The position numbers and the translations under genes are program-made. The notes under the pieces are model-generated. The model made no database searches, was not told the DNA's origin, and was given only the letters and a program-made list of their open reading frames with translations. Below are positions 4,385 to 17,004 of a stretch of DNA of 38,485 nucleotides, one piece after another; position 1 is the stretch's first letter, and every line of letters starts with the position of its first letter. The stretch comes from Acidobacteriaceae bacterium (GTDB lineage Bacteria; Acidobacteriota; Terriglobia; Terriglobales; Acidobacteriaceae). The stretch covers positions 1-38,485 of the forward strand of contig PLHQ01000200.1 in the NCBI GenBank assembly GCA_003138975.1, given 5' to 3'.

Positions 4385-4424
4385 CGCCGCCGCTCATTTG
4401 AGCTGAGTGCGGCGTTTCTCTTTT
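4385..4424 (+). terminator. Rho-independent terminator after glgA
   Basis: CGCCGC (4385-4390) pairs with GCGGCG (4409-4414), with further partial pairing inside, and is followed by the T-rich tract TTTCTCTTTT. It lies 24 bp after the glgA stop and before dinB, so dinB probably has its own promoter. Confidence 0.65.
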
Positions 4425-4442
4425 GGCTGCTACAATTCGTCC

Positions 4443-5816
4443 ATGGCCGTCACCTCCCAACTGCCGGCTCTCTCCCGAACCATCTTCCACGTCGACATGG
4501 ACGCATTCTTCGTCTCGGTGGAGGAGTTGTACGATCCGTCGCTGAAAGGGAAGGCTGTTGTGGTGGGCGGACAGCGGCATGAGCGGGGCGTGCTTTCGGC
4601 TGCATCTTATGAGGCGCGGAAGTTCGGGGTGCATTCGGCGCTGCCGCTGCGAACCGCGGCGAAACTTTGTCCGCAGGCGATTTTTGTCGAGGGTCATCCG
4701 CAGCGCTACCGCGAGTATTCAGAAAAAGTCTATAAGGTGCTGACGGCATTCTCACCGCAGGTGGAGATGGCGTCCATTGACGAAGCCTACCTGGACATGA
4801 CGGGCACGGCGCGGTTACACGGCCCGCCGCTGCGGGCGGCTCACAAATTGCACAGGCGGATGAAGGAAGAAACGCAGCTGAACTGTTCGATCGGCATCGG
4901 CTCATCGCGTTTGATCGCGAAGGTTTCATCCGCGCAGTCGAAGCCTAACGGCGTGCTGTGGATTGTGCCGGGAGAGGAATCGAAGTTCCTTGCGCCTCTG
5001 GATGTGCGGGCAATTCCCGGGGTAGGCAAGGTGATGGAGAGCCATCTGCGTTCGTTGGGTATCAAGAAAGTGGGAGACTTGGCGCGGCTGGAAGAATTTG
5101 AGCTTGAGGAGCGATTCGGTAAGTGGGGGTTAGCGCTGGCGGGCAAGGCGCGCGGAGAAGATGCGGGGGGATGGTTCGACGCTGAAGTGGGCGCCGACAC
5201 GGCAGCGAGATCCATCAGCCACGAGCATACGTACAACGAAGACACGGCGGATACGAACCAGCTGGAAGCTACGCTGATGCGGCTTTCCGAGATGGTGGGA
5301 CGGCGCTTGCGCGAAGCCAAGCTCTACGCGCGCACGATTCAACTCAAGCTGCGCTACAAAGACTTCACGACCATCACGCGCGCACATACCTTGCCGGCGC
5401 CTACTCAACTTGATGGCGAAATCTTTGAGCAAGTGCGCGCCTTGTTTCGCAAGAACTGGAAGCAGCGTAGAGAGGTCCGGCTGCTGGGAGTGCAGGCGTC
5501 TTCATTCGAGGCACAGCCAGAGCAGATCAGTCTGCTTGAAAGTGGTCCACAACAGCGTTGGAAAAATGTACTGGCGGCGGCGGATCGTTTGCGCGACAAG
5601 TTTGGCGAGTCGAGCGTTTCGTTTGCTTCAGGCCTGCGGGGAACTTTCCGCGAGCGGACCCACGAGAATCCGACAGGGCTGCCGGGGAAAAATAAGGAAA
5701 AGTGGAGCCGGTTCAATTACCACACTGCCTCGCCCACCGGGCTGCGCCCGGTCGGACACTCGCGGGCGGCAGTCCCCACATTTGGAAAAACGAAGGCCGG
5801 GCATCCCGGAAGGTGA
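4443..5816 (+). CDS. dinB: DNA polymerase IV (Y-family translesion polymerase)
   Basis: Pol IV is an error-prone Y-family polymerase that copies past damaged bases. The 457-residue product has the metal-binding aspartate of HVDMDAFFVSVE (D18), the palm motif SIDEAYLD (D113, E114), the SIGIGSSRLIAKVSS finger/palm segment, a helix-hairpin-helix thumb (IPGVGKVMESHLRSLGIKK) and a little-finger domain. ATG at 4443 was chosen because homology starts shortly after it; no strong ribosome site precedes it. The last 25-30 residues are not polymerase-like: they are read through a palindromic repeat (5733-5780), and the stop codon lies in the loop of the hairpin that terminates the opposite-strand protease gene. 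No obvious clamp-binding peptide is seen at the extreme C-terminus. Confidence 0.94.
   Translation: MAVTSQLPALSRTIFHVDMDAFFVSVEELYDPSLKGKAVVVGGQRHERGVLSAASYEARKFGVHSALPLRTAAKLCPQAIFVEGHPQRYREYSEKVYKVLTAFSPQVEMASIDEAYLDMTGTARLHGPPLRAAHKLHRRMKEETQLNCSIGIGSSRLIAKVSSAQSKPNGVLWIVPGEESKFLAPLDVRAIPGVGKVMESHLRSLGIKKVGDLARLEEFELEERFGKWGLALAGKARGEDAGGWFDAEVGADTAARSISHEHTYNEDTADTNQLEATLMRLSEMVGRRLREAKLYARTIQLKLRYKDFTTITRAHTLPAPTQLDGEIFEQVRALFRKNWKQRREVRLLGVQASSFEAQPEQISLLESGPQQRWKNVLAAADRLRDKFGESSVSFASGLRGTFRERTHENPTGLPGKNKEKWSRFNYHTASPTGLRPVGHSRAAVPTFGKTKAGHPGR
5733..5780. repeat. Interspersed palindromic repeat, copy in dinB
   Basis: A perfect 7-bp stem with a 3-nt loop, ACCGGGC-TGC-GCCCGGT (5736-5752), is followed after 11 nt by GGGCGGCAGTCCCCACA (5764-5780). 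The same architecture and spacing, with GGGCGGCTGTCGCCACA, recurs inside uvrC at 16055-16102. The conserved tail plus a variable but self-complementary stem indicates a REP-like family. Here it is translated as the dinB C-terminus. Confidence 0.7.
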
Positions 5817-5832
5817 TTCCGGATCCCGGCCT
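5794..5832 (-). terminator. Rho-independent terminator of the M48 protease gene, overlapping the dinB 3' end
   Basis: A long GC-rich inverted repeat, AGGCCGGGCATCCCGGAA (5794-5811) against TTCCGGATCCCGGCCT (5817-5832) with two small bulges, has a 5-nt loop. Reading on the minus strand, the stem is followed by TCGTTTTT, so it fits termination of the M48 gene ending at 5864. The dinB stop codon (5814-5816) sits in the loop. On the plus strand the downstream tract is only weakly T-rich. Confidence 0.75.
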
Positions 5833-5863
5833 GCGTCTTATTGCAACTTGGAGTAGAGCTTGC

Positions 5864-7657
5864 TTAGTTGCCCGAGTTTGAGTTGGCAGCGGTAGTGGGC
5901 GCGGCGCTCGGAGCGTTCGCGGTGCCGTAGCGAGCCAGCCGCGGGTAAAACGGCGTGACTTCAAACGGCATCTTGTCGCGCGCCGAGGTGATGGCGACCG
6001 GAGCCGCCTTTACCATTTCTGCCTTGTCGTCCCAGGGATTGATTTTGACGCGTCCGCCCAAGGGCAGAGCCGCGACCTGATCCAGTTTCGTGTTGTCGAG
6101 CGCCGGGCCTTGCGTGGAAAGGGCAGACAGGCGAGTGATGGTGCCATTGTCGGCCAGAGAATTGCCCAGGTGCGTGGTCAATAGCGCGTTGAGCTGAGGA
6201 GCGCGGGCTTGCAGCGCCTTCAGGAATAAGCCGACATTGTCGAGTTTCTGCGCGTAGGGCGAGTTTTTCAACAGTTCTACGGCCTTCTTGTCGGCTGAGG
6301 CTTCTTCTTCCGGAATATGTTTGAATCCAAAGTTGCTGTAGGTGGAGTCATCAGAGAACAACATGCGGTCGTTAAAGGCGTACTTGCTGCCCAAATTGTG
6401 GCCGAGCACGATGTGCGCGAGCTCATGCGAGAGCACAGCTGCCAGGCTGGCCTCGTCGGGAAGCACGTCGATTAATCCCCGGCTGATGACGATGGTGTTC
6501 CCCACGCTGAAGGTTTCGAGTGGCGCGGTGAGCAACACGCGAGTCCGCACCGGCCGCGGCAGATCGATGTTGTTAGTGACCTCAAGGTTGTTGACCACGG
6601 TCTGGAGAATGTGGTCCACGTCGCCCTCGGGCGCAAGCAAGCCTGCGCGTGTGAGACGCTCGATGACGTTATCTTCCGCCTGCTGCTGCCATTCCCGCTC
6701 GGCCTGTAGCGGAGAAGCATCCTGGGTGGTCGCGCTTTCGTCCTTCACGCTGTCTACACGAATCTGCGTGAGTTCGTCGTCCTTGCCTTCCTTCTTCAGA
6801 TCGTAGCCCCAGATGCGGGTCTGCGCCTTGAAGGCCATCTTGTTCTTCACGCCAGCGCTGAAGTCGCCTTCTTCGCTGTAGATGTAAGCGGGTACCCAGT
6901 AGCCAGGAATCAGGTTGAGGCGCCAACTATCCATGTGGAAGAAATAGGAATTACGCGGTGCCGGAGCGTAGGTACCGTTTAAGCGGACGATGTTGAACTC
7001 CTGATCCTCGACCCAAACGCGGCCGAGGAAGCGTCCCCTGCCGGAGCCCTTCTTGGGCATGACGTCGAAGACTAGGCAGCGGACGTCGCCGAGAAATTCG
7101 CGGCGAATATAGTGAAACTCGTAGTGCTCGCGGTCAAAATCCGTACGGTCAGCGTAAACCATCCAGGAAAAGCCCAGGGGCTGGTACTGCACCTTGAAGA
7201 GCTTGTTGAAGCCGCCCATCAGCCGCGTCTCCATGCCCTTGTCTTGCTCCTTCAGATAATCTTTGCGGTCAACCGTCTCGCCCATATCCATGCGACCCAG
7301 GAAATAATGGTCTGCGCTGGGGACGGGGCCGAGTTGCGGATCGGCGCTCAGATTTTGTAGATAAGTCTCAACCACCGGTGTGCGGGTGGAGAGAGCCTTC
7401 ATGAGTCCGTGCTCGCGTTCGATGAAGCGATCCACTACCTGATCCATGGTGGTGGGCTGAGGCAGAGCCGAGGGTGTTGGCGCCGGCGCGGTGCTCTGAG
7501 CCGTTGCCGGTTGTGCGGCAGCGGACGGGGCGGACGGTTGCACCGTCGGCGCGGGAGTATTCGGCTGGGCGGATCTTTGCGAGTCAGACGACTGCTGGCT
7601 AGCTGCGCTCACCGAGACTAGCAGTGCGGCTGTGAACATCCATTTCGAAGTGCGCAT
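5864..7657 (-). CDS. Secreted M48 family metalloprotease with N-terminal lipoprotein-carrier-like domain
   Basis: A 597-residue exported protein. It begins with a signal peptide (about residues 1-20) and a Pro/Ala/Gln-rich linker to about residue 68. Next comes a roughly 230-residue beta-rich region whose pattern (GFSWMVYADRTDF, VFDVMPKKGSGRGRFLGRVW, SWRLNLIPGYWVPAYIYSE) resembles LolA/LppX-like lipoprotein-carrier folds. The peptidase domain has the zinc motif HELAH (411-415) and the third ligand in EASAD (E452), as expected for gluzincins of family M48. Relatives such as BepA and LoiP act in outer-membrane protein quality control, so a periplasmic role is inferred. GGAGAG lies six bases before the ATG at 7657. 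The upstream neighbour is a TonB-family gene on the same strand. Confidence 0.88.
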   Translation of the reverse strand: MRTSKWMFTAALLVSVSAASQQSSDSQRSAQPNTPAPTVQPSAPSAAAQPATAQSTAPAPTPSALPQPTTMDQVVDRFIEREHGLMKALSTRTPVVETYLQNLSADPQLGPVPSADHYFLGRMDMGETVDRKDYLKEQDKGMETRLMGGFNKLFKVQYQPLGFSWMVYADRTDFDREHYEFHYIRREFLGDVRCLVFDVMPKKGSGRGRFLGRVWVEDQEFNIVRLNGTYAPAPRNSYFFHMDSWRLNLIPGYWVPAYIYSEEGDFSAGVKNKMAFKAQTRIWGYDLKKEGKDDELTQIRVDSVKDESATTQDASPLQAEREWQQQAEDNVIERLTRAGLLAPEGDVDHILQTVVNNLEVTNNIDLPRPVRTRVLLTAPLETFSVGNTIVISRGLIDVLPDEASLAAVLSHELAHIVLGHNLGSKYAFNDRMLFSDDSTYSNFGFKHIPEEEASADKKAVELLKNSPYAQKLDNVGLFLKALQARAPQLNALLTTHLGNSLADNGTITRLSALSTQGPALDNTKLDQVAALPLGGRVKINPWDDKAEMVKAAPVAITSARDKMPFEVTPFYPRLARYGTANAPSAAPTTAANSNSGN

Positions 7658-7790
7658 GACTTTCTCTCCAAATTCTTAAAACCAGTTTCTTCAAAGCAAT
7701 ATTTCTCTGGACCGACATCCCCGATTTGCCTCGCAGATTCAGGCCCGCGAAACTAACCTTCTGGACGAATCCTTCCGTGTATCCAAACTC

Positions 7791-8819
7791 TTAGTACGCC
7801 AACTGAAACAGCACGTGTACGACTGCCGTGGAATCCGTGGGCTGTCCCATGCGCAGCGCGGGCTTGAACCGCATCTTGTTAGCAGCCGCGACGGCTGCTT
7901 CGTCCAATCCGTGACCCAGGCCGCGAACCACGCGATTGACATGCAGCGTTCCATTGGCGCTGAACATCACTTCCAGCAAAACTTCACCTTCCAACTTCAG
8001 ACTGCGGGCATCGTCTGTGTAGAGCGGCTGCGGCTTGTATGTAATCTCCACTGGTACAGTGGCGGGCCCCGAGTCAGCCTGGGCGAGCTTCGGTCCGCCG
8101 TGAACCACCTGCTCAGCGCCGAATCCGCCGGTCGACACCGCACTGCTGCGGCCGTCGCCCTTGCTTCCGGTTGCGATGCTGCTGCCGAAATCGGCACTGG
8201 CAACTGTGCCTTTAATGCCTTTCGCTCCGCCCGATCCATTGCCTTGCCCCGATCCTGCGGGCATATCAAATGATCCGGCCTGGGCGGCATATAGCTTGGC
8301 GCCCTGCTTGCCCGTGCCCTGCAAGCCATTGGGATCGCCAAAGCCTCCGGTCTGCACCTTCTGCACGGCGACATTCACCGTGGGCGCCACGGAGTTTCCC
8401 GAGAAATCTCCTGTGTGCAAAAGTTGTGGACGCGCCGCTCCTGAAGTCATCTTGATCTGGGGAGCAGCGAACTGATTGATTACGACCTTCGGTGCTTCTA
8501 CCCGCTCAGGAGTGGGCGCACGATGAACCTCATGCGGCACGACTAGCTTTGGTTGCTCGAAAACGGGCGCGGGGGGAAGCAGCTTCATCTTCAATGGCTT
8601 CACCTTGACCGGCGCAGGCTCTGGCCTTAGCGCTGGTAGGGGAATCAATTCCGTCACCCGATACGCCTGCAACTGAAGCCGATCCGGAAACACGATCCCA
8701 AGATTCACCAGGAGAAAAGTGACCAGAACGATAAAGACGTAGCTGGTTGCCAGTGCGCGCTTGTCGATCTTGCGCTCCGGCAAAATCCCGAGCTGAAAAC
8801 TGTATTGAGGCGTAGCCAT
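7791..8819 (-). CDS. TonB family protein (energy transducer-like)
   Basis: A 342-residue inner-membrane-anchored protein. One membrane helix (about residues 24-44, SYVFIVLVTFLLVNLGIVF) is followed by a long Pro/Lys- and then Gly/Ser-rich periplasmic region and a C-terminal TonB domain (about 255-342: PVEITYKPQPLYTDDARSLK, GEVLLEVMFSANGTLHVNRV, AANKMRFKPALRMGQP). TonB transmits the proton-motive force to outer-membrane transporters. No exbB/exbD or TonB-dependent receptor is adjacent, so its partner is unknown. GGAG lies eight bases before the ATG at 8819. It may be co-transcribed with the M48 gene 133 bp downstream. Confidence 0.9.
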   Translation of the reverse strand: MATPQYSFQLGILPERKIDKRALATSYVFIVLVTFLLVNLGIVFPDRLQLQAYRVTELIPLPALRPEPAPVKVKPLKMKLLPPAPVFEQPKLVVPHEVHRAPTPERVEAPKVVINQFAAPQIKMTSGAARPQLLHTGDFSGNSVAPTVNVAVQKVQTGGFGDPNGLQGTGKQGAKLYAAQAGSFDMPAGSGQGNGSGGAKGIKGTVASADFGSSIATGSKGDGRSSAVSTGGFGAEQVVHGGPKLAQADSGPATVPVEITYKPQPLYTDDARSLKLEGEVLLEVMFSANGTLHVNRVVRGLGHGLDEAAVAAANKMRFKPALRMGQPTDSTAVVHVLFQLAY

Positions 8820-8982
8820 GTATTTACTCCAAGGATCCCCAGGCCGAGGGAGCAGACCGGGATTGGAGCTTTCACAGTACGGGAAAAAGGACAGGGCGGA
8901 AACGTGTCCACGGCTCTTGACCTAAGGTAACCAGGGGTGAACTCTTACGGGAATTGAGCCCGAAATGGGCCAGGAGCGCTGC

Positions 8983-10398
8983 TCATGACGCCACGTCTGC
9001 CTGACGGCGCCAGCGAAACCAGGAGAAAACCGGTACGCCAGCCAGAATTACCAGGAGTCCATACAAGGAATTCGGCCAGTTTTCGCGAAAGGTGTAGTAG
9101 AGAAGGACGGCGGCAACGGTAATGAACAATGCGGGAACGAAAGGGTAGCCTAGGACGCGGTACGGCCGAACTGCTTGCCGATCGCGCCAGCGGAAGATGA
9201 AGATGGTGCTACCGGCGATCATGTAGAAGAGCCATTCTGCAAAGATGGCGAGGGAAAAGAGTTGGCGGAAGTTTCCTCCCAGCAGCAGAAGGATGATCGA
9301 CAGCATTGCCTGCACTACGATCGCAGCCGAGGGCGTGTGAAAGCGCGGATGAACCTCCGCAAGAGCGCGGAAGAAGTATCCGTCTCGTGCCATGGCGAAG
9401 GGCACGCGGGCGCCGCTCATGACGGTGCCGTTCAGCGTGACCAGCATGGAGATAGCCATGCCCGCCGACACGATGGCTGCGCCCATGTGTCCCATGACCA
9501 GAGCGACTGCATCCGAGGCGGGCCGGGGCGATGCCGCGATCACACTCGCCGGCAGCACGTATTGCACGCCCGCATTCACCAGGACATAGAGAACGCCGAC
9601 CGTGGCTACGCCGGCGATTAGAGCAATCGGAATGTTGCGCTCCGGCTTCTTCACCTCGCCGGCCACCATGTTCAGATCGTTCCAGCCGTCGTAAGCCCAC
9701 AAAGCCGCGACCAGTGCGGCCATGAAGCCGGCGATCCCGCCCTTGGCTCCGGTAAACGTTCCGGCAAAATTGCTCCAGCCGCGTCCGGTCGCGCCGCCGG
9801 CGCCGCTGAAGCACACCGCGACGATGCCGAGAATGATTGCCACTTTCAGCACCGTAAATACAAGCTGGAATTCTCCGGCCTTCTTCACTCCCAGGTAGTT
9901 CAGAACGGAAATAAGAATGGCTGCGGCAATTGCGACAAGCTGTCCCCATGTGACCGGGAAAGAGTGAAAGGAGATGTTCGCGGGGAAAATGTTCCCAGAA
10001 AAAAATGAAAAGATGGAGAACGTACCCAGGATGCGCACCAGTCCGGTCGCGACCGTGGCCACCGAGGCCGGTTTCGCGATTACGAACCATGTCCAACCGT
10101 AAAGAAAACCGCCAAGGGGACCGTAAGCGTCGCGGACGTAAACATACTCGCCGCCCGTCTGCGGCTTCATGGCGCCCAGTTCGGCGTAGGTAAGCGCACC
10201 AAAAAAAGACAGCAGGCCACCCACGAGCCATGCCAGATAAACCAGTTTGGCCGAGCCCACTGCCTGCATCATCTCGGCGGGAACCAGAAAGATTCCGCTG
10301 CCGATGATCGTTCCCACCACTACCGCCGAGGCATGGCTTACGCCTAAGTCACGAGAAAGCTCAGGACGGGTGGTAGTTTGCTGTAGTAGTTCTGGCAT
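8983..10398 (-). CDS. APC superfamily amino acid permease
   Basis: A 471-residue polytopic membrane protein with about twelve hydrophobic helices. The first helix carries the APC substrate-site sequence VVVGTIIGSGIFLVP. Other family landmarks are GGEYVYVRDAYGPLGGFLYGW and FMAALVAALWAYDGWNDLNMVAGEVKKPERNIP, typical of the LAT/YfnA/SteT-like branch. Substrate cannot be inferred beyond amino acids or related amines. ATG at 10398 is used; a TTG lies five codons upstream. It follows the sodium/solute symporter gene by 44 bp on the same strand, so the two transporters may share a transcript. Confidence 0.92.
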   Translation of the reverse strand: MPELLQQTTTRPELSRDLGVSHASAVVVGTIIGSGIFLVPAEMMQAVGSAKLVYLAWLVGGLLSFFGALTYAELGAMKPQTGGEYVYVRDAYGPLGGFLYGWTWFVIAKPASVATVATGLVRILGTFSIFSFFSGNIFPANISFHSFPVTWGQLVAIAAAILISVLNYLGVKKAGEFQLVFTVLKVAIILGIVAVCFSGAGGATGRGWSNFAGTFTGAKGGIAGFMAALVAALWAYDGWNDLNMVAGEVKKPERNIPIALIAGVATVGVLYVLVNAGVQYVLPASVIAASPRPASDAVALVMGHMGAAIVSAGMAISMLVTLNGTVMSGARVPFAMARDGYFFRALAEVHPRFHTPSAAIVVQAMLSIILLLLGGNFRQLFSLAIFAEWLFYMIAGSTIFIFRWRDRQAVRPYRVLGYPFVPALFITVAAVLLYYTFRENWPNSLYGLLVILAGVPVFSWFRWRRQADVAS

Positions 10399-10442
10399 GG
10401 TTGAAGGGTGCAAGTATACGTCAGAGGACGCATCGGTCTTCT

Positions 10443-11900
10443 TTACGAGTGTTCCCGCACAAGCAGGCTAGTGACGTATCCCACTCCAAACGTTACAACC
10501 GTCCCAATCATTACCCACCACGTCCACGGGACATGCGTGCAACGCCACAGATATAAATCGACGCTGAATCCAAACAGCATGCCCACCATCGCTCCGCGCT
10601 GATTGGCCTCCCGCGTCAACACGCCGAGCAGGAAGACTCCCAGCAGCGCGCCGTAGGCCACCGATGCAATTTGCAGCCCGACTTCGACTACGCGTCCAGC
10701 TTTGTGAAGCGACAAAACTGCCAGGCCAAACAGCACCATCGCAAAAAAGAACGTGGCCAGCCGCGAAAGGCGCATCCGTCTCTGTTCGTCCGCTTGCGGC
10801 CAAAGGCGCAGGTAGAAGTCCATAATCGCGCTGGATGACAGGGAGTTCAGCGCCGCGCTCAGGTTCGACATGGCTGCCGCTAGAATCGCGGCGATCAGCA
10901 GGCCGGAGATCCCGTGCGGCATCTGTCTGACGATGAACGTAGGGTAAATTCGATCAGGTCTCCCGAAGGTCGCCGAGGGCACGCGGTAGTAGGCCCACAG
11001 CATTACACCCACAATCAGGAATAACGCAAACTGAAACAGAATTGCGACGCCACTCGAAAGCAGCGCCGTCACGGATTGCTTTCGGCTGCGAGCCGCGAGC
11101 AGGCGCTGCACGATTAGTTGATCGGTGCCGTGGCTGGCCGTAATAAAAAAAGTTCCGCCGATCACGCCGGCCCAGAACGTATAAGGAATCCACAAGCTCG
11201 GCGTGAAGTCGAACACCTGCAGCTTGCCCGCGCTTGCGGCGGCGGCATGGATGGCGCTCCACCCACCCGGAACCAGATGCAGGATCGTCCACAATCCGAC
11301 CAGCGTTCCGCCAACGTAGATCACGGTCTGCACCACGTCGGTCCAGATCACCGCCGCCAGTCCGCCCTCAAATGTATAGATGAGCGTCAATGCAGTGATG
11401 ATGGCGATCGAGGCGACTTCGCCCGTGCCCAGTGCGATTGCAACCACGATCGATACGGCATAGACGCGCACGCCTTCCGCAGCAGTACGCGTCAGCAGAA
11501 AAAGTCCGGCAGTCAGCGAGCGCAAACCGCGCCCGAAGCGGCGTTCAATCAATTCATACGCCGTGTAGAGATCCCCGCGAAAGTAATGCGGCAACAGGAC
11601 GAAGCTAATCACGACGCGTCCGACAACATACCCCAACACCACTTGCAGGAAAGTGAGATTGGTGTCATAGGCCAGGCCGGGAATGCTGATGATGGTGAGC
11701 GTGCTGGTTTCGGCGGCAACGATGGAAAGCGCGATGGCCCACCAGGGAATATCGCGTCCCGCCAGGAAGTAGTCGCGCAGAGTACGATGCCGCTTGCGGA
11801 AACGCAGTCCGAACAGGGTGATGCCGACCAGATACAACGCGATAATCGCCAGATCGAGTTGGTCGAGGCCCATGCGCTCTGCCGCGTTTGATTGAGCCAT
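10443..11900 (-). CDS. Sodium:solute symporter family protein (SSS)
   Basis: A 485-residue integral membrane protein of the SSS family (TC 2.A.21) with about 13 predicted helices. Recognisable segments are DYFLAGRDIPWWAIALSIVAAETSTLT (helix 1 and sodium-site region), YELIERRFGRGLRSLTAGLFLLTR and YTFEGGLAAVIWTDVVQTVIYVGG. Family members import sugars, organic acids or amino acids with sodium. The divergent gene 111 bp away is a BadF/NagK-type sugar kinase, which makes a sugar or amino-sugar substrate plausible, but this is inference from context only. No clear ribosome site precedes the ATG at 11900. Confidence 0.92.
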   Translation of the reverse strand: MAQSNAAERMGLDQLDLAIIALYLVGITLFGLRFRKRHRTLRDYFLAGRDIPWWAIALSIVAAETSTLTIISIPGLAYDTNLTFLQVVLGYVVGRVVISFVLLPHYFRGDLYTAYELIERRFGRGLRSLTAGLFLLTRTAAEGVRVYAVSIVVAIALGTGEVASIAIITALTLIYTFEGGLAAVIWTDVVQTVIYVGGTLVGLWTILHLVPGGWSAIHAAAASAGKLQVFDFTPSLWIPYTFWAGVIGGTFFITASHGTDQLIVQRLLAARSRKQSVTALLSSGVAILFQFALFLIVGVMLWAYYRVPSATFGRPDRIYPTFIVRQMPHGISGLLIAAILAAAMSNLSAALNSLSSSAIMDFYLRLWPQADEQRRMRLSRLATFFFAMVLFGLAVLSLHKAGRVVEVGLQIASVAYGALLGVFLLGVLTREANQRGAMVGMLFGFSVDLYLWRCTHVPWTWWVMIGTVVTFGVGYVTSLLVREHS

Positions 11901-11967
11901 TATGGCCGTACTTCAGCTTTCCCGCGAGTGAGAGTCTATGAACCTCTAAGCAAAAGTGTTCGAAAAA

Positions 11968-11992
11968 ACTGAGAACCGAGAGCTGAGAACTT
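11968..11992. repeat. Short imperfect direct repeat in the symporter/kinase intergenic region
   Basis: CTGAGAAC occurs twice within 25 bp, separated by CGAGAG, in the 111-bp divergent spacer. It could be a regulator half-site pair or a simple slippage repeat. No promoter elements can be confidently assigned. Confidence 0.4.
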
Positions 11993-12011
11993 CCTGTGAT
12001 AAAAATAACCC

Positions 12012-12929
12012 GTGGATTACTTTTTGGGCGTTGATGGTGGCGGCAGCAAGACAGCATGCGTGGTGGGCAGTGAATCTTCAGTCCTAGCATCCGCCCAGTC
12101 AGGCCCCAGCAACATCACTCGGGTTGGAGAAGTTCGCGCTCGCGAATCGCTGCACGAGGCGATACGGCGGGCGTGCGCCGCCGCGAGAATCGATCCGCGG
12201 CAATTGAGGTATGCCTGCATCGGCGCCGCCGGAGCAGGACGGGCAGAGATTGCCAGCGTCGTTCGTAATATGGCTGCAGAAGTGATTCCTGGAGAAATCG
12301 AGGTTGTGGGCGATATGCAGATTGCACTGCAAGCCGCTTTGGGCGAGGGGCCGGGTGTAATCGTAATCGCGGGTACGGGTTCGATCGCCTTCGGTCGCGA
12401 TGCGCAGGGAAAAACTGCTCGTGCCGGAGGTTGGGGTTTTGCCATTTCTGATGAAGGCTCGGCTCACTGGATCGGCCGCACCGCGGTCGCCGCCGTGCTT
12501 CGCTCAGCCGATCAATCTGATCTAAGCGCTCAGCAAACCTCGCCGTTATTCCGCGAGATGAAATCTATCTGGAAGCTGGAATCATTGGAGGAATTGGCGG
12601 GCACTGCCAACTCCAATCCGGACTTTGCTACGCTCTTGCCCACAATCTTGGCCGCTGCCGATTCCGGAGACGAACTGGCACAACAAGTCCTCGCGCAAGC
12701 GGGAAGAGAACTCGCACGACTCGCCAGCATCGTTATGCGGCGGCTTTTCTCTGAGCAGCATGCGACTGTCCCACTGGCCATGGCGGGCGGCGTCTTTCGT
12801 CATGCACCGATGATCCGCGAGCTTTTCTACAATGAAGTTCGCACGGCGCATCCACACGTCGTTTTGAATCCTGAAGTGGTCGAACCGGTTCAAGGTGCAT
12901 TGCAATTGGCACGGAGAGCCGCTTCGTGA
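12012..12929 (+). CDS. BadF/BadG/BcrA/BcrD ATPase family protein, N-acetylglucosamine kinase-like
   Basis: A 305-residue member of the ASKHA fold (PF01869). Visible signatures are the phosphate-1 loop FLGVDGGGSKTACVVG at the N-terminus, the GDMQIALQAAL segment (phosphate/substrate loop), the adenosine-site motif VIAGTGSIAFG, and GGWGFAISDEGSAHWIG, shared with NagK-type amino-sugar kinases rather than with benzoyl-CoA reductase activators, which carry extra cysteines. Role: likely ATP-dependent phosphorylation of N-acetylglucosamine or a related cell-wall sugar. The start is GTG at 12012. It is divergent from the SSS transporter, so a transport-plus-phosphorylation pair is plausible. The gene downstream begins 15 bp after its stop. 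Confidence 0.88.
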   Translation: MDYFLGVDGGGSKTACVVGSESSVLASAQSGPSNITRVGEVRARESLHEAIRRACAAARIDPRQLRYACIGAAGAGRAEIASVVRNMAAEVIPGEIEVVGDMQIALQAALGEGPGVIVIAGTGSIAFGRDAQGKTARAGGWGFAISDEGSAHWIGRTAVAAVLRSADQSDLSAQQTSPLFREMKSIWKLESLEELAGTANSNPDFATLLPTILAAADSGDELAQQVLAQAGRELARLASIVMRRLFSEQHATVPLAMAGGVFRHAPMIRELFYNEVRTAHPHVVLNPEVVEPVQGALQLARRAAS

Positions 12930-12944
12930 GCGCCGCAATTGATC

Positions 12945-13700
12945 ATGGATTCGGGAGGAATCCAACCTGAATGCACGCAGCCTCCCCCGGTCGCTGAGCC
13001 CGCGGCAGTGCGGCTGCGCACTGCCGCGGACGCAAACACTCCCGACCCCATCCCGCCGCTAACCGAAGATGTCGTCCTAGCCCTACTCGAGCGCCGCGAC
13101 GTGCCTCCGGAGACCCTGGAGGAATTCAGCCAGAACCCAGCCGCGCTGAAGTCGCGAAAAGTATGCGTCATTCTCGCCGCTCATCCCCACACGCCGCGGC
13201 ATCTTGCGCTCCGGCTAATTCGCCAGTTCTACACGTTCGATCTGATGCGGTTTACGCATCATCCGGCGGTCGCCGCCGATTTAAAACGTGTGGCCGACGA
13301 GCAACTCATCGCGCGCCTGACCTCCGTCACGCTGGGGGAACGCCTCACGCTAGCCCGGCGCGGATCGCAAGCCGTCGCTGCCGCGCTGTTGCTCGACACA
13401 GAATCCCGCGTCTCGCACACCGCCCTGGAAAATTCCCGGCTGACGGAAGCCGCTGTCATCAAAGCACTCCTGCGGCCGAACGGGTCAGCTTTTGTCGAGG
13501 CGGTGTGCCATCACCCGAAGTGGTCGCCGCGGCGCGAGATCCGCGTGGCGTTGCTGCGCAGTCCACATACGCCCCTCGCCCGGGCCCTCGAGTTTGCCCG
13601 CACTCTTCCTCCACCGCTTCTGCGAGACATTCTGCACACATCACGTTTGCCGGAGAAGATCAAGGCTTACCTGCACAATAATCTGAAGGAAAGGAAGTAG
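12945..13700 (+). CDS. Conserved hypothetical helical-repeat protein
   Basis: I do not recognise a named family. The 251-residue protein has a Pro/Ala-rich N-terminal 40 residues and then a series of amphipathic helix pairs (RKVCVILAAHPHTPRHLALRLIRQFY, ADEQLIARLTSVTLGERLTLARRG, TEAAVIKALLRPNGSAFVEAVCHHP, RREIRVALLRSPHTPLARALEF). Their recurring 'x-Leu-Ala-x-HP-x-TP' pattern suggests a HEAT- or leucine-rich-variant-like alpha solenoid. No signal peptide or membrane helix is seen, so it is probably cytoplasmic. The spacing of 15 bp after the kinase gene suggests co-transcription. The start is uncertain: ATG at 12945 or TTG at 12939. Confidence 0.75.
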   Translation: MDSGGIQPECTQPPPVAEPAAVRLRTAADANTPDPIPPLTEDVVLALLERRDVPPETLEEFSQNPAALKSRKVCVILAAHPHTPRHLALRLIRQFYTFDLMRFTHHPAVAADLKRVADEQLIARLTSVTLGERLTLARRGSQAVAAALLLDTESRVSHTALENSRLTEAAVIKALLRPNGSAFVEAVCHHPKWSPRREIRVALLRSPHTPLARALEFARTLPPPLLRDILHTSRLPEKIKAYLHNNLKERK

Positions 13701-13722
13701 GATTCAGTCTTCCGAAGTACCA

Positions 13723-14476
13723 TTACCGTCCGCCGCCGATTTCCAAATGGCGCCCGTGGTATAGGAGGCCGCAGCGGAGAGCAGCCAGAGCACGCCCTCG
13801 GCTACTTCGAGCGGCGTGCCTGCCCTTTGCATTGGAATGGTTGCTGCTAGCCGGTCCAGCCGGTCCGGCGCGCCATTGGCGGCATGCAGGCCGGTTTCGA
13901 TCAGTCCGGGAGCAACTGCGTTCACGCGGATTCCTTCGTTGCGACTTCGCGCGCAAGTCCAATCGTGAAACTGTCAATCGTACCCTTGGACGCAGCGTAG
14001 TGGACCCACTCTCCGGCAGAGCCGGTGCGCGCCGCGCGCGAAGATATATTTACGATCGCACCGCCCGTTCCGCCGCGCTGGGTTGACATGCGACGCACGG
14101 CCTCGCGTGCGCACAAAAACGCTCCCGTCACATTTACCGCCATGACTTGCGCGAGAGTTGTTGCGCTTACCGATTCCACTCGTGCAAATCCTCCGGTAAT
14201 GGCGGCGTTATTGACTAGAGCCTTGATCGCGCCCAGTTCGCGTTCGGCAGTTTCGAAAAGTCGGACGACATCTTCCTCACGGGCAACATCTGCTTGGATC
14301 GCACAAGAACGCCCGCCCGCGGATACGATCTGTTCTGCGATCGCCCGCGCTTCGGCCTCACCGGTCGCAAAATTAACCGCCACAGAATATCCGCGCGCAC
14401 TCGCTCGTTGCGCGATCGCCGCGCCGATTCCGCGACTCGAGCCGGTCACGATGAGCGTGCCCTGGTTGCTCAGCAT
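13723..14476 (-). pseudogene. SDR family oxidoreductase (FabG-like), broken by two frameshifts
   Basis: The conceptual product is a complete classical short-chain dehydrogenase/reductase of about 250 residues. It has TGSSRGIG for the NAD(P) loop, NNAA, catalytic Ser in IVNISSRAA and the YxxxK pair in HYAASKG, then EGIRVNAVAPGLIETG and a C-terminal TGAI-LEIGGGR. The reading frame changes twice. Near 13938-13945 (GTTGCGAC, plus strand) one base appears missing, so translation runs into a stop just after GLAREVATKESA. Near 13752-13757 a second base appears missing in the codons expected to read ATT-TTG-GAA, moving the C-terminus out of frame. As sequenced it would yield a truncated 184-residue protein lacking the substrate-side C-terminus. 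Either a decaying gene or two assembly errors. Confidence 0.8.
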
Positions 14477-14592
14477 AGATTCATTTCATGGACGAAGGGC
14501 CAGTTTAGCAAAGCTCAGAACATTGCCCCAGAGGGTGCAGGGGAACACAGAAGAAAACGCGTGTAGAATATTCGCTCATTCGTGGAGGCTGC

Positions 14593-15078
14593 ATGAAATC
14601 GCTTCTGCTGGTTCTGGTGGTCACGTTGCTGGTTGTGACGGTCGTAGTGCCGGATACTCGTCCATTCGTTTCTGCCTCGGCGAAGCCCAGTGCGGAGACG
14701 CTGCGGCAGTTGGAAGGCGAGTTCATGAAGGCCGCGGCGGAGCATGGCTCTGCGGGATACATGTCTTACTACGCCGACGATGCAGTTGAAGTGCCCAACG
14801 GCGCGGCAATCATTACGGGGAAAGTAAACATCGCGAAGACCATGGGATTTCTCGACGACAAGAACAACCATCTTAGCTGGACTCCGGTGGGCGCCGATAT
14901 TTCAGCCTCGGGCGATCTCGGGTACACCTACGGTACTTACGAATTTCGCGCAGTCGGCAAAGACGGCAATCCTGTCGTTGAGCATGGTAAGTACACCAGC
15001 ATCTGGAAGAAGCAGAGAGATGGCAGCTGGAAGGTTGTTTTAGACATGGGGAATGCGAGTACGGAATCGTCGAAATAG
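14593..15078 (+). CDS. Exported NTF2-like (DUF4440/SnoaL-type) protein
   Basis: A 161-residue protein with a hydrophobic N-terminal segment (about residues 2-20) that looks like a signal peptide or anchor, followed by one NTF2-like domain. The DUF4440 pattern is clear: LRQLEGEFMKAAAEHG, YMSYYADDAVEVPNGAAIITGK, and the final strands YGTYEFRAVGKDGNP, GKYTSIWKKQRDGSWKVVLDMGN. Such domains bind small hydrophobic ligands or act as isomerase-like scaffolds; the ligand is unknown. A GGAGG ribosome site lies six bases before the ATG. It is divergent from the broken SDR gene and convergent with uvrC, whose stop is only a few bases away. Confidence 0.88.
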   Translation: MKSLLLVLVVTLLVVTVVVPDTRPFVSASAKPSAETLRQLEGEFMKAAAEHGSAGYMSYYADDAVEVPNGAAIITGKVNIAKTMGFLDDKNNHLSWTPVGADISASGDLGYTYGTYEFRAVGKDGNPVVEHGKYTSIWKKQRDGSWKVVLDMGNASTESSK

Positions 15079-15084
15079 AATCAG

Positions 15085-17004
15085 CTATTTCCGAAAGTGA
15101 TTACTGATTGCTTCCGCTTGGACCCGGGTAACGACCGCCGAGAGCGCGGCTGCGTCCGCCTGCTTTACCGCTTGCAAACTGCCAAAGTGTTCGAGGAGTC
15201 GGCGGGTTGTGCTCTCGCCTACACCGGGAATCTCTCTTAGCTCGGTGGAGCGGTCACGCATCTGCCGGCGTTTGCGATGGAACGTCACGGCAAAACGGTG
15301 GGCTTCGTCACGAATGAGTTGAATGAGATGCAGCACAGGCGAGTGATGATCGAGAACGACCGGATCCTTCTCTTGCCCATAAACGTAGAGTATCTCCTCG
15401 CGCTTGGCGATGGCCGCGAGCGGCTGGTTGATGATCTCCAGCGATTCCAGCGCTGCGGCGGCCTCATGCAACTGGCCGAGTCCTCCATCGATCAGCACCA
15501 GGCTGGGCATGGTTTTCTCTTCCTGCTGCAAGCGCTTGTAGCGGCGCGTGACCACTTCGCGCATGGAAGCGAAATCGTCGACGCCCTCGACGGTACGGAT
15601 AATAAATTTGCGGTAATCCGATTTCTTCATCTTGCCGTCCTCCCAGACCACCATGGAGGCCACGGTTTCCGCGCCTTGAATGTGGGAGATGTCGAAGCAC
15701 TCGATGCGCTTGGGCAGTTCGGGAAGGCTTAGAACTTCCTGCAATTCTTCCTGGATGGCCTTGGCGTTGGGCTTGAGAACGCGAAAACGCTGATCGTAGG
15801 ATTGCTTGGCGTTGGTTCCGGCGAGGTCGATGAGGGCACGCTTGTCGCCGCGCTGCGGGACCAATATGTGAACGTGCGCGGCGCGGGGATCCGAAGCCGC
15901 TACCTGCTCGGAGAGCAAGTCTTCGAGAGTTTCACGATCTTCGAAATCGACGGGCACGTAGAGATTCCGGGGCACGTAGGGCTGGCTGATATAGAGCTGC
16001 TTGAGCAGAGCAGAGAAGAACTCACCGGGATGAAAGTCGCTAGCGACAGGAGGAGTAGCCGAGCCTTGCTCGGCCCGAGAGCCGGGGGCGGCTGTCGCCA
16101 CAGGGTCAGAGGAAGACTCGACATCCGGGGGCGATGCGAACTCCGGAAGATCTTCCCAGAAGAATTCGCGGCGGTCGACGACGCGTCCGCCGCGCATGTG
16201 GAATAGATTTACTGCGAGCATGCCGTTTTCATAGTGGTAGCCGAAGACGTCGGCGTCATCGCCTTCGGCGGCGGCAATGCGCTGGCGCTCCTGGAGTTGC
16301 TCCACGGTGGAAATCAAATCGCGGTAGCGGGCAGCGCGCTCATACTCTTCCGCGGCGGCAGCGTGCTCCATGCGTTCGTGCAGCGATCGAGCTAAATCCG
16401 TGGGACGACCTTCCAGAAAAAGTTTCACGTCACGAACGGCTTCCTGATACGTCTCGGGCGTAGTTAGGTCCTTCACGCATGGGCCCAGGCAACGTTTTAT
16501 GTAATACTGCAAACACGGACGCGGATGAAAGCGTGTTAGGTCGACTTTGCACGACGGAATCAGAAAGTTACGGTGAATCAGATCGACGATGCGATAAGCC
16601 AGATTAGCGGGGAAGTAGGGGCCGTAGTAAGCGCTGCCGTCCTTACGCAGGCGGCGCGTGACGTAGACCCGCGGCCAGCGCTCGCCCAGCGTGAGCTTTA
16701 CGTAAGGGTAAGTCTTGTCGTCGCGCAGCAGGATGTTGAAGCGCGGTTTACGCTGCTTGATGAGATTGTTCTCGAGCGCCAGCGCTTCTTTGTTGTTGGC
16801 GACGACAATGTAGTCGACGTCGACCGCCTCGCGCACCAGAGTGCCAGTCTTCGAATCTTCCCAGCGGCCTTCGTGGAAATAGCTGGCCACGCGGCTGCGC
16901 AGGTTCTTTGCCTTGCCCACGTAGATCACTTCGCCCTCGGCGTTTTTGTAGAGATAAACGCCGGGCTCGGTGGGGATGGTGCGGATTTTTTGGAGAAGAT
17001 CCAT
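15085..17004 (-). CDS. uvrC: UvrABC excinuclease subunit C
   Basis: UvrC makes both incisions in nucleotide excision repair. The 639-residue product has the GIY-YIG nuclease at the N-terminus (GVYLYKNAEGEVIYVGKAK), a conserved cysteine cluster (CKVDLTRFHPRPCLQYYIKRCLGPC, residues 152-176), a UVR motif for UvrB contact (about 210-245), an RNase H-like nuclease with D438 (ECFDISH), D506 (LIDGG) and H567 (RDEAHRFA), and C-terminal tandem helix-hairpin-helix motifs (about 588-635). Residues about 301-317 are a low-complexity insert translated from a palindromic repeat, located in the linker before the RNase H region, where it should be tolerated. No strong ribosome site precedes the ATG. Confidence 0.96.
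   Translation of the reverse strand: MDLLQKIRTIPTEPGVYLYKNAEGEVIYVGKAKNLRSRVASYFHEGRWEDSKTGTLVREAVDVDYIVVANNKEALALENNLIKQRKPRFNILLRDDKTYPYVKLTLGERWPRVYVTRRLRKDGSAYYGPYFPANLAYRIVDLIHRNFLIPSCKVDLTRFHPRPCLQYYIKRCLGPCVKDLTTPETYQEAVRDVKLFLEGRPTDLARSLHERMEHAAAAEEYERAARYRDLISTVEQLQERQRIAAAEGDDADVFGYHYENGMLAVNLFHMRGGRVVDRREFFWEDLPEFASPPDVESSSDPVATAAPGSRAEQGSATPPVASDFHPGEFFSALLKQLYISQPYVPRNLYVPVDFEDRETLEDLLSEQVAASDPRAAHVHILVPQRGDKRALIDLAGTNAKQSYDQRFRVLKPNAKAIQEELQEVLSLPELPKRIECFDISHIQGAETVASMVVWEDGKMKKSDYRKFIIRTVEGVDDFASMREVVTRRYKRLQQEEKTMPSLVLIDGGLGQLHEAAAALESLEIINQPLAAIAKREEILYVYGQEKDPVVLDHHSPVLHLIQLIRDEAHRFAVTFHRKRRQMRDRSTELREIPGVGESTTRRLLEHFGSLQAVKQADAAALSAVVTRVQAEAISNHFRK
16055..16102. repeat. 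Interspersed palindromic repeat, copy inside uvrC
   Basis: A perfect 7-bp stem with 3-nt loop, GCCGAGC-CTT-GCTCGGC (16058-16074), is followed after 11 nt by GGGCGGCTGTCGCCACA (16086-16102). This matches the dinB copy at 5733-5780 in architecture, spacing and the conserved tail. It is read in frame as uvrC residues of about 301-317 (PVATAAPGSRAEQGSATP). Confidence 0.7.

Follow-up and report, generated by a model that had tools for sequence, protein, structure and literature searches.

A 38,485-nucleotide stretch of an Acidobacteriaceae bacterium genome (GenBank assembly GCA_003138975.1, contig PLHQ01000200.1; hereafter the window, and its genome the window genome) carries two copies of a palindromic repeat, one at the 3' end of dinB, encoding DNA polymerase IV, and one within uvrC, encoding excinuclease subunit C. 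These copies are very probably decayed members of a repetitive extragenic palindromic (REP) family that was multiplied throughout the genus by a REP-associated tyrosine transposase (RAYT), the uvrC copy being a surviving insertion and the dinB copy having become coding through the loss of a stop codon. The features concerned, with their coordinates in the window and strand, are the following.

4407..5816, forward strand: dinB open reading frame with the Pfam domains IMS and IMS_C, its C-terminus lengthened by stop loss
5703..5705, forward strand: TGG, in frame, opposite the dinB stop codon TAG of genome G042; the frame reads on through the REP to 5816
5736..5752, forward strand: REP copy 1, variable hairpin 1, 7-bp stem and 3-nt loop
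5754..5775, forward strand: REP copy 1, conserved hairpin 2, decayed, 4 mismatches to GGACAGCCGAGGGCGGCTGTCC
5776..5780, forward strand: REP copy 1, tail CCACA, on the reverse strand TGTGG, a GT(A/G)G-type tag at the foot of hairpin 2
15085..17004, reverse strand: uvrC, carrying REP copy 2 in frame and antisense
16058..16074, forward strand: REP copy 2, variable hairpin 1, 7-bp stem and 3-nt loop
16076..16097, forward strand: REP copy 2, conserved hairpin 2, decayed, 4 mismatches, with 8 of 9 pairs intact as read from the sequence
16098..16102, forward strand: REP copy 2, tail CCACA, by direct reading

The repeat unit and its distribution in the genus

Hairpin 1 of copy 1 is formed by the stem halves ACCGGGC (5736-5742) and GCCCGGT (5746-5752) around the loop TGC, and that of copy 2 by GCCGAGC (16058-16064) and GCTCGGC (16068-16074) around CTT. 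The perfect 7-bp stems, 3-nt loops, 11-nt gap and shared tail described in the original prediction were all confirmed, the tails ending at 5780 and 16102; the division into a spacer and a tail was correct as to lengths, but the spacer is the decayed left arm of a second, conserved hairpin that had been overlooked. Judging from copies gathered from the window genome, the full unit consists of the variable hairpin 1 (for example GTCGAGC-TTC-GCTCGAC), the conserved hairpin 2 (GGACAGCCG-AGGG-CGGCTGTCC), of which undecayed copies have the arms GGACAGCCG and CGGCTGTCC, and then CCACATGAG (CCACATG). The consensus element is free of stop codons in five of the six frames.

Regarding copy number, the 17-nt tail (up to 2 mismatches) had 50 matches in the 5.45-Mb window genome against 7 in the reversed control, and the 27-nt hairpin 2 consensus (up to 3 mismatches) had 31 against 0; counts for this genome derive from pattern searches and retrieved stretches, and of the 40 matches obtained when hairpin 2 was allowed up to 5 mismatches, at least one is probably false (the match at 1761 of L040, with 5 mismatches). 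The repeat is present in all 41 sampled genomes of the genus, at 1-167 copies each and 2032 in total, and in 0 of 16 genomes outside the family (14 from another family of the order, two from other families of the class), a sample that held no other genera of the same family. Among the matches listed (119 stretches) there are at least 80 named carrier loci, all from Acidobacteriota records (Candidatus Sulfotelmatobacter, Acidobacteriaceae, gp1 and Terriglobia metagenome-assembled genomes), a result with which carriers elsewhere are compatible. A subfamily with a GGACGGRCG stem occurs in 30 of the 41 genus genomes, the window genome not being among them. The search of the genome and its relatives that the original prediction proposed has thus returned many further copies, and the possibility that there were none falls away.

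The pairing of the two hairpins was assessed in an alignment of 26 of 38 copies, from which both window copies and ten others, several without a clear hairpin 1, were omitted. In it 93.1% of cells pair, a figure flattered by the selection of copies and checked by the unselected stem counts given below. Cells changed on both sides of a pair numbered 20 (19 in hairpin 1 and one in hairpin 2) against a mean of 6.1 after shuffling, with none of 500 shuffles as high; by a weaker measure, the number of pairs with two-sided change, the values were 5 and 3.0, with 29 of 500 as high. These paired changes in hairpin 1 back the earlier claim of a REP-like family whose stem varies and yet stays self-complementary. 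Among unselected copies, the 26 nt preceding hairpin 2 contain a perfect stem of 5 bp or more in 17 of 35 from the window genome, 37 of 52 from G042, a genome that has the cognate RAYT (the 52 being part of 61 counted copies, with the RAYT region and uvrC outside the set), and 78 of 107 from the named loci; windows flanking them gave 2 and 2, 4 and 5, and 7 and 3, respectively, and shuffles 6-8%. Because the unselected counts exceed both the flanking and the shuffled controls, hairpin 1 is a genuine part of the unit, although it has already decayed in roughly half of the copies from the window genome.

A second, CCTTCGACTTCGCTCAGGGCAGG-like palindrome lies near or inside hairpin 2 at 5 of 52 tails in window-genome loci, at 2 of 129 in named loci and at 0 of 52 in G042; the window-genome (G000) loci are L018 (around 1983), L021 (around 6287), L023, L028 (around 5674) and L031.

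RAYT genes, orphan copies and the mode of spread

Genes exceeding the cut-off of the NCBIfam RAYT model are present in 34 of the 41 genus genomes. One RAYT of G001 (NF047646, 80.6 bits; cut-off 80) has three copies of the repeat upstream and one downstream. With this protein as query, a match was found in 35 of the 41 genomes, and 30 loci, one per genome, were retrieved; all seven RAYTs at least 71% identical to it are flanked on both sides by copies with 0-2 mismatches, the nearest starting within 62 bp, while 0 of the 23 other RAYTs examined (at most 66% identical) have a copy within 400 bp. Genomes with the cognate RAYT hold a median of 114 copies (n = 7) and those without it 30.5 (n = 34; one-sided p = 0.0044, uncorrected for relatedness).

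The tag at the foot of hairpin 2 is GT(A/G)G in 20 of 21 copies flanking RAYT genes (GTGG in 15, GTAG in 5), the comparison being confined to these copies, which had been found without use of the tail, and excluding the window genome and named loci, which were fetched by patterns containing the tag. Two earlier studies report GT(A/G)G heads on REPs (PMC2817692) and GTGG variants of such heads (PMC3733652).

The window genome itself, which is 98.6% complete, has no match to the cognate RAYT at E 0.001, its best RAYT-like matches scoring 49 bits, for a fragment next to undetermined bases, and 42 bits, for a Y1 transposase with an internal TAG. Because the cognate RAYT is missing from this genome, its copies are orphans. 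The suggestion that RAYT activity spread the repeat is supported for the genus, in which a cognate RAYT has copies on both sides, but not for the window's own genome. Y1 transposases of the IS200/IS605 type were also considered as movers and rejected, the repeat adjoining none of the genes in 31 Y1 loci; its only match there, in L128, is over a kilobase from the gene. Two Y1 transposases were observed in the window genome, one with a TAG inside (G000:C115:125-478, L051) and one of IS200/IS605 type (G000:C107:148652-148975, L010).

As in the inverted REP pairs known as REPINs (PMC3116915), some copies are paired in inverted orientation, their tails pointing outward and their starts 74-161 bp apart, and both halves are present in uvrC of several species, for example G002, G023 and G044. 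Unlike in REPINs, inverted doublets are not the dominant form: singlets prevail, with 1 pair among 36 window-genome copies, 7 tail-outward pairs among 108 named copies and 1 among the 52 of G042, whose RAYT region is not included.

In-frame copies in dinB, uvrC and other genes

Regarding dinB, 30 loci including that of the window were retrieved, one of them unreadable, leaving 28 readable orthologues. Counted from the start of the anchor LLGVQASSFE, the protein ends after 72-80 residues in these 28 and after 111 in the window. A repeat within 200 nt past the stop codon was seen in G042 alone, where a perfect copy lies 49 nt 3' of the stop and is shared with the window, hairpin 1 differing at one loop base; in the alignment, the repeat is absent from G056 at the corresponding position 3' of dinB. 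Because the TGG of the window aligns with a TAG in G042 and both have the repeat downstream, dinB is not an insertion host: the palindrome does form the coding C-terminus, as had been proposed, but this arose by stop loss into a 3' intergenic REP and not by insertion. In a ROK-family kinase of the window genome (L014, 1808-2887, reverse strand) the repeat also lies near the C-terminus, where it may mark a further stop loss or an extended tail.

In uvrC, the earlier reading of a true internal, in-frame insertion on the strand opposite to the gene was upheld. Copy 2 sits in a loop where the RNase H-like domain of UvrC begins (PF22920, with two matched stretches, the better at 313-405). Alignment of orthologues shows that the insert is absent from G007, which has a 36-residue loop, and from other families, where 12 of the 13 loci have a 26-residue loop and the remaining one a loop of 30; the insert is not kept in orthologues that lack the palindrome.

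Within the genus, 36 uvrC genes from the 41 genomes were readable, the rest being missing, split or truncated. Their loop measures 36-110 residues, anchors included, and holds a recognisable repeat in 33 of the 36; among the three without one, G005 and G046 may hold remnants. The present repeat occupies 18 loops, a second family (TGTCATCCTGAGCGAAGCGAAGGA...) 8, both families 2, and a third (AGAGACGTTGC...GCAACGTCTC) 5, with 24 of the 33 labels assigned by pattern and nine by eye (G052, G022, G051, G011, G018, G003, G043, G055 and G053), as was the A half of the G016 loop. The second family (TGTCATCCTGAGCGAAGCGAAGGA ... CTCAGGATGACA, read as CHPERSEG...) is likewise in frame, and was seen in the uvrC loops of L070, L076, L083, L086, L088, L090, L092, L152, L154 and L155.

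The family label requires 17 changes on a tree of the 36 species, no fewer than shuffled labels do (16.7). At least eight gains or losses on well-supported branches are needed for the second family by itself. This tree, built from codons of uvrC without the loop and of dinB, leaves 10 of 33 inner branches open and replaced a tree of UvrC protein only, which left 18 of 33 open. Of the 36 genus loops, 22 contain a perfect stem of 7 bp or longer, as do 2 of 28 loci outside the genus, the latter being those retrieved from 97 genomes with a match, and many of their loops also being shorter. In other genera of the same family the loop has 34-109 residues (15 loci) and lacks such a palindrome in 14 of the 15. 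Because these genera have long, mostly palindrome-free loops, the uvrC loop was long and tolerant beforehand, and in this genus REPs enter and leave it. This turnover of repeat families in one loop is the part most worth following.

Further genes carry the repeat in frame. In the window genome this applies to 11 of 40 copies, all backed by Pfam, in uvrC, mutS2, ubiD, valS, uvrD, metH, lhr, lpxB and genes for an agmatine deiminase, a hydantoinase A and a quinone oxidoreductase; looser coding thresholds combined with Pfam were used because strict ones missed the known hosts metH and valS. The corresponding figures are 9 of 52 in G042, with one copy, in a NamZ/beta-lactamase gene, near an uncertain start, and 13 of 109 at the named loci, with L199 (mutS2) assigned by similarity and L221 perhaps upstream of the true start. 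Host tallies are not additive, since named loci overlap the G-numbered genomes (L247 agrees letter for letter with a stretch of G042, and L208 matches G002). The in-frame share is higher in the window genome than at the named loci (p = 0.04; the comparison with G042 gives p = 0.31), and nothing is built on this difference. The remaining copies failed the screen for open frame and coding score or had no Pfam match, Pfam having been run on part of them. Short (20-40 nt), dispersed in many copies and, on these figures, mainly extragenic, the repeat has the hallmarks of a REP.

The sites in mutS2, metH, lpxB, lhr and hydantoinase A recur across species, mostly in one orientation, and such same-orientation recurrence suggests inheritance. 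Both orientations were seen at the agmatine deiminase and lpxB sites, which suggests repeated events or the loss of different halves of a pair. The idea that repair genes are special hosts found no support, as seven of the 11 genes that carry an in-frame copy in the window genome have other functions.

Origin of the coding copies and relation to known REP systems

In the proposed sequence of events, the RAYT would act on single-stranded DNA at the hairpin that bears the GT(A/G)G tag and so multiply the family, and would later have been lost from the window genome, as opposed to never having been present there. Most copies would settle outside conserved genes, and those in genes would survive only where a whole number of codons was added to a tolerant loop or tail, such inserts being presumably neutral. 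The uvrC copy would be one such survivor, in a loop that several REP families have entered, left and entered again in related species, and the dinB copy would originally have been intergenic and turned coding on stop loss.

Several observations weigh against this account. Mobilisation itself was not observed; inverted pairs, the usual mobile unit, are scarce; half of the copies in the window genome lack a perfect hairpin 1 stem; and tolerance alone does not readily account for such frequent hits on one loop. Copy-rich genomes without the cognate RAYT exist (G050 with 131 copies, G023 with 116, G002 with 89 and G017 with 88), and G010 has the cognate RAYT yet only 9 copies in a genome that is 72% complete. 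Because copy number and the presence of the cognate RAYT are mismatched in such genomes, RAYT loss or the action of other RAYTs must be assumed.

The most serious alternative, although an unlikely one, is that REPs are targeted to the uvrC loop, where a resident palindrome draws further ones, hairpin into hairpin, so that turnover exceeds what tolerance would give. The three families, the 17 label changes with sister species holding differing families, the tandem A+B arrangement in the loops of G012 and G016, and the CCTTCGACTTCGCTCAGGGCAGG-like palindrome at 5 of 52 window-genome tails are what it would predict, but the insertion points differ within the loop, the nested palindrome is found at only 2 of 129 named tails and at none of 52 in G042, and the long loops of other genera in the family, 14 of 15 without a 7-bp palindrome, argue for plain tolerance. 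A broader version, in which the loop is a standing dock where unrelated families succeed each other in frame, either because hairpins draw hairpins or because the linkers tune excision repair, is a little more doubtful still.

It is improbable that the REP-coded segments of UvrC and other repair proteins were selected for a changed repair activity with a mutator effect. That uvrC, mutS2, uvrD and lhr make up four of the 11 genes hosting in-frame copies in the window genome is consistent with such selection, as are the occupation of uvrC in 33 of 36 species and the same repair bias reported for other bacteria in PMC3733652; the other seven hosts, the three uvrC loops without repeats, one with just 36 residues, and the lack of amino-acid conservation of the loop across families or orientations speak against it, and the count of repair hosts is post hoc, with gene lengths and loop content uncontrolled. 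Chance palindromes or a selected RNA hairpin at both loci, without a mobile family, would suit the position of copy 1 just 3' of the usual dinB end, since gene-end hairpins can be terminators, but are refuted almost beyond doubt by the 31 copies against 0 in the control, the occurrence in 41 of 41 genus and 0 of 16 other-family genomes, the flanking of RAYT genes and the absence from orthologous sites in relatives.

The preferred reading, a RAYT-multiplied family with decayed copies in the window, places the repeat close to the GTAG REPs with RAYT known as REPtrons. According to Nunvar 2010 (PMC2817692) and Di Nocera 2013 (PMC3733652), these share with it a short hairpin with GT(A/G)G at the foot, tens to more than 100 copies per genome, a RAYT flanked by copies, several subfamilies per genome, and genic copies including some in repair genes. 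The present repeat differs in that many units add a second, sequence-variable hairpin, that copies are mostly single and that the host genus is new. PMC3733652 (2013) reports REPs within genes of several species, many of them for replication and repair (UvrABCD, RecBCD, Pol I), with one recB site common to two Xanthomonas species, and suggests a role as flexible linkers while speculating on mutator effects; intragenic repeats of R. conorii are there equated with RPE-4 and RPE-6. Rickettsia palindromic elements (RPE) are also palindromic repeats in frame in unrelated protein genes. They differ from the present repeat in sequence and hosts, and, unlike them, it lies mostly outside conserved genes and is linked to a RAYT. 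Regarding the phylum, PMC12306157 gives REP counts for three other Acidobacteriota, and PMC6006769 places a rare transposase class in Acidobacteria; among the titles and opening lines of abstracts listed, nothing was found on REPs of this genus or on repeat turnover in uvrC.

Thus, the repeat is a further member of the known REP/RAYT class, with an unusually good hot spot in uvrC, and through it a REP family and its RAYT are linked in an uncultured genus of Acidobacteriota. As the dinB case shows, stop loss can turn a REP into coding sequence with no insertion involved. The uvrC loop offers a natural experiment on palindromes entering proteins, with many species, one loop, several families and copies that are still recognisable, and the question whether REPs in repair genes are tolerated or selected becomes testable with one gene.

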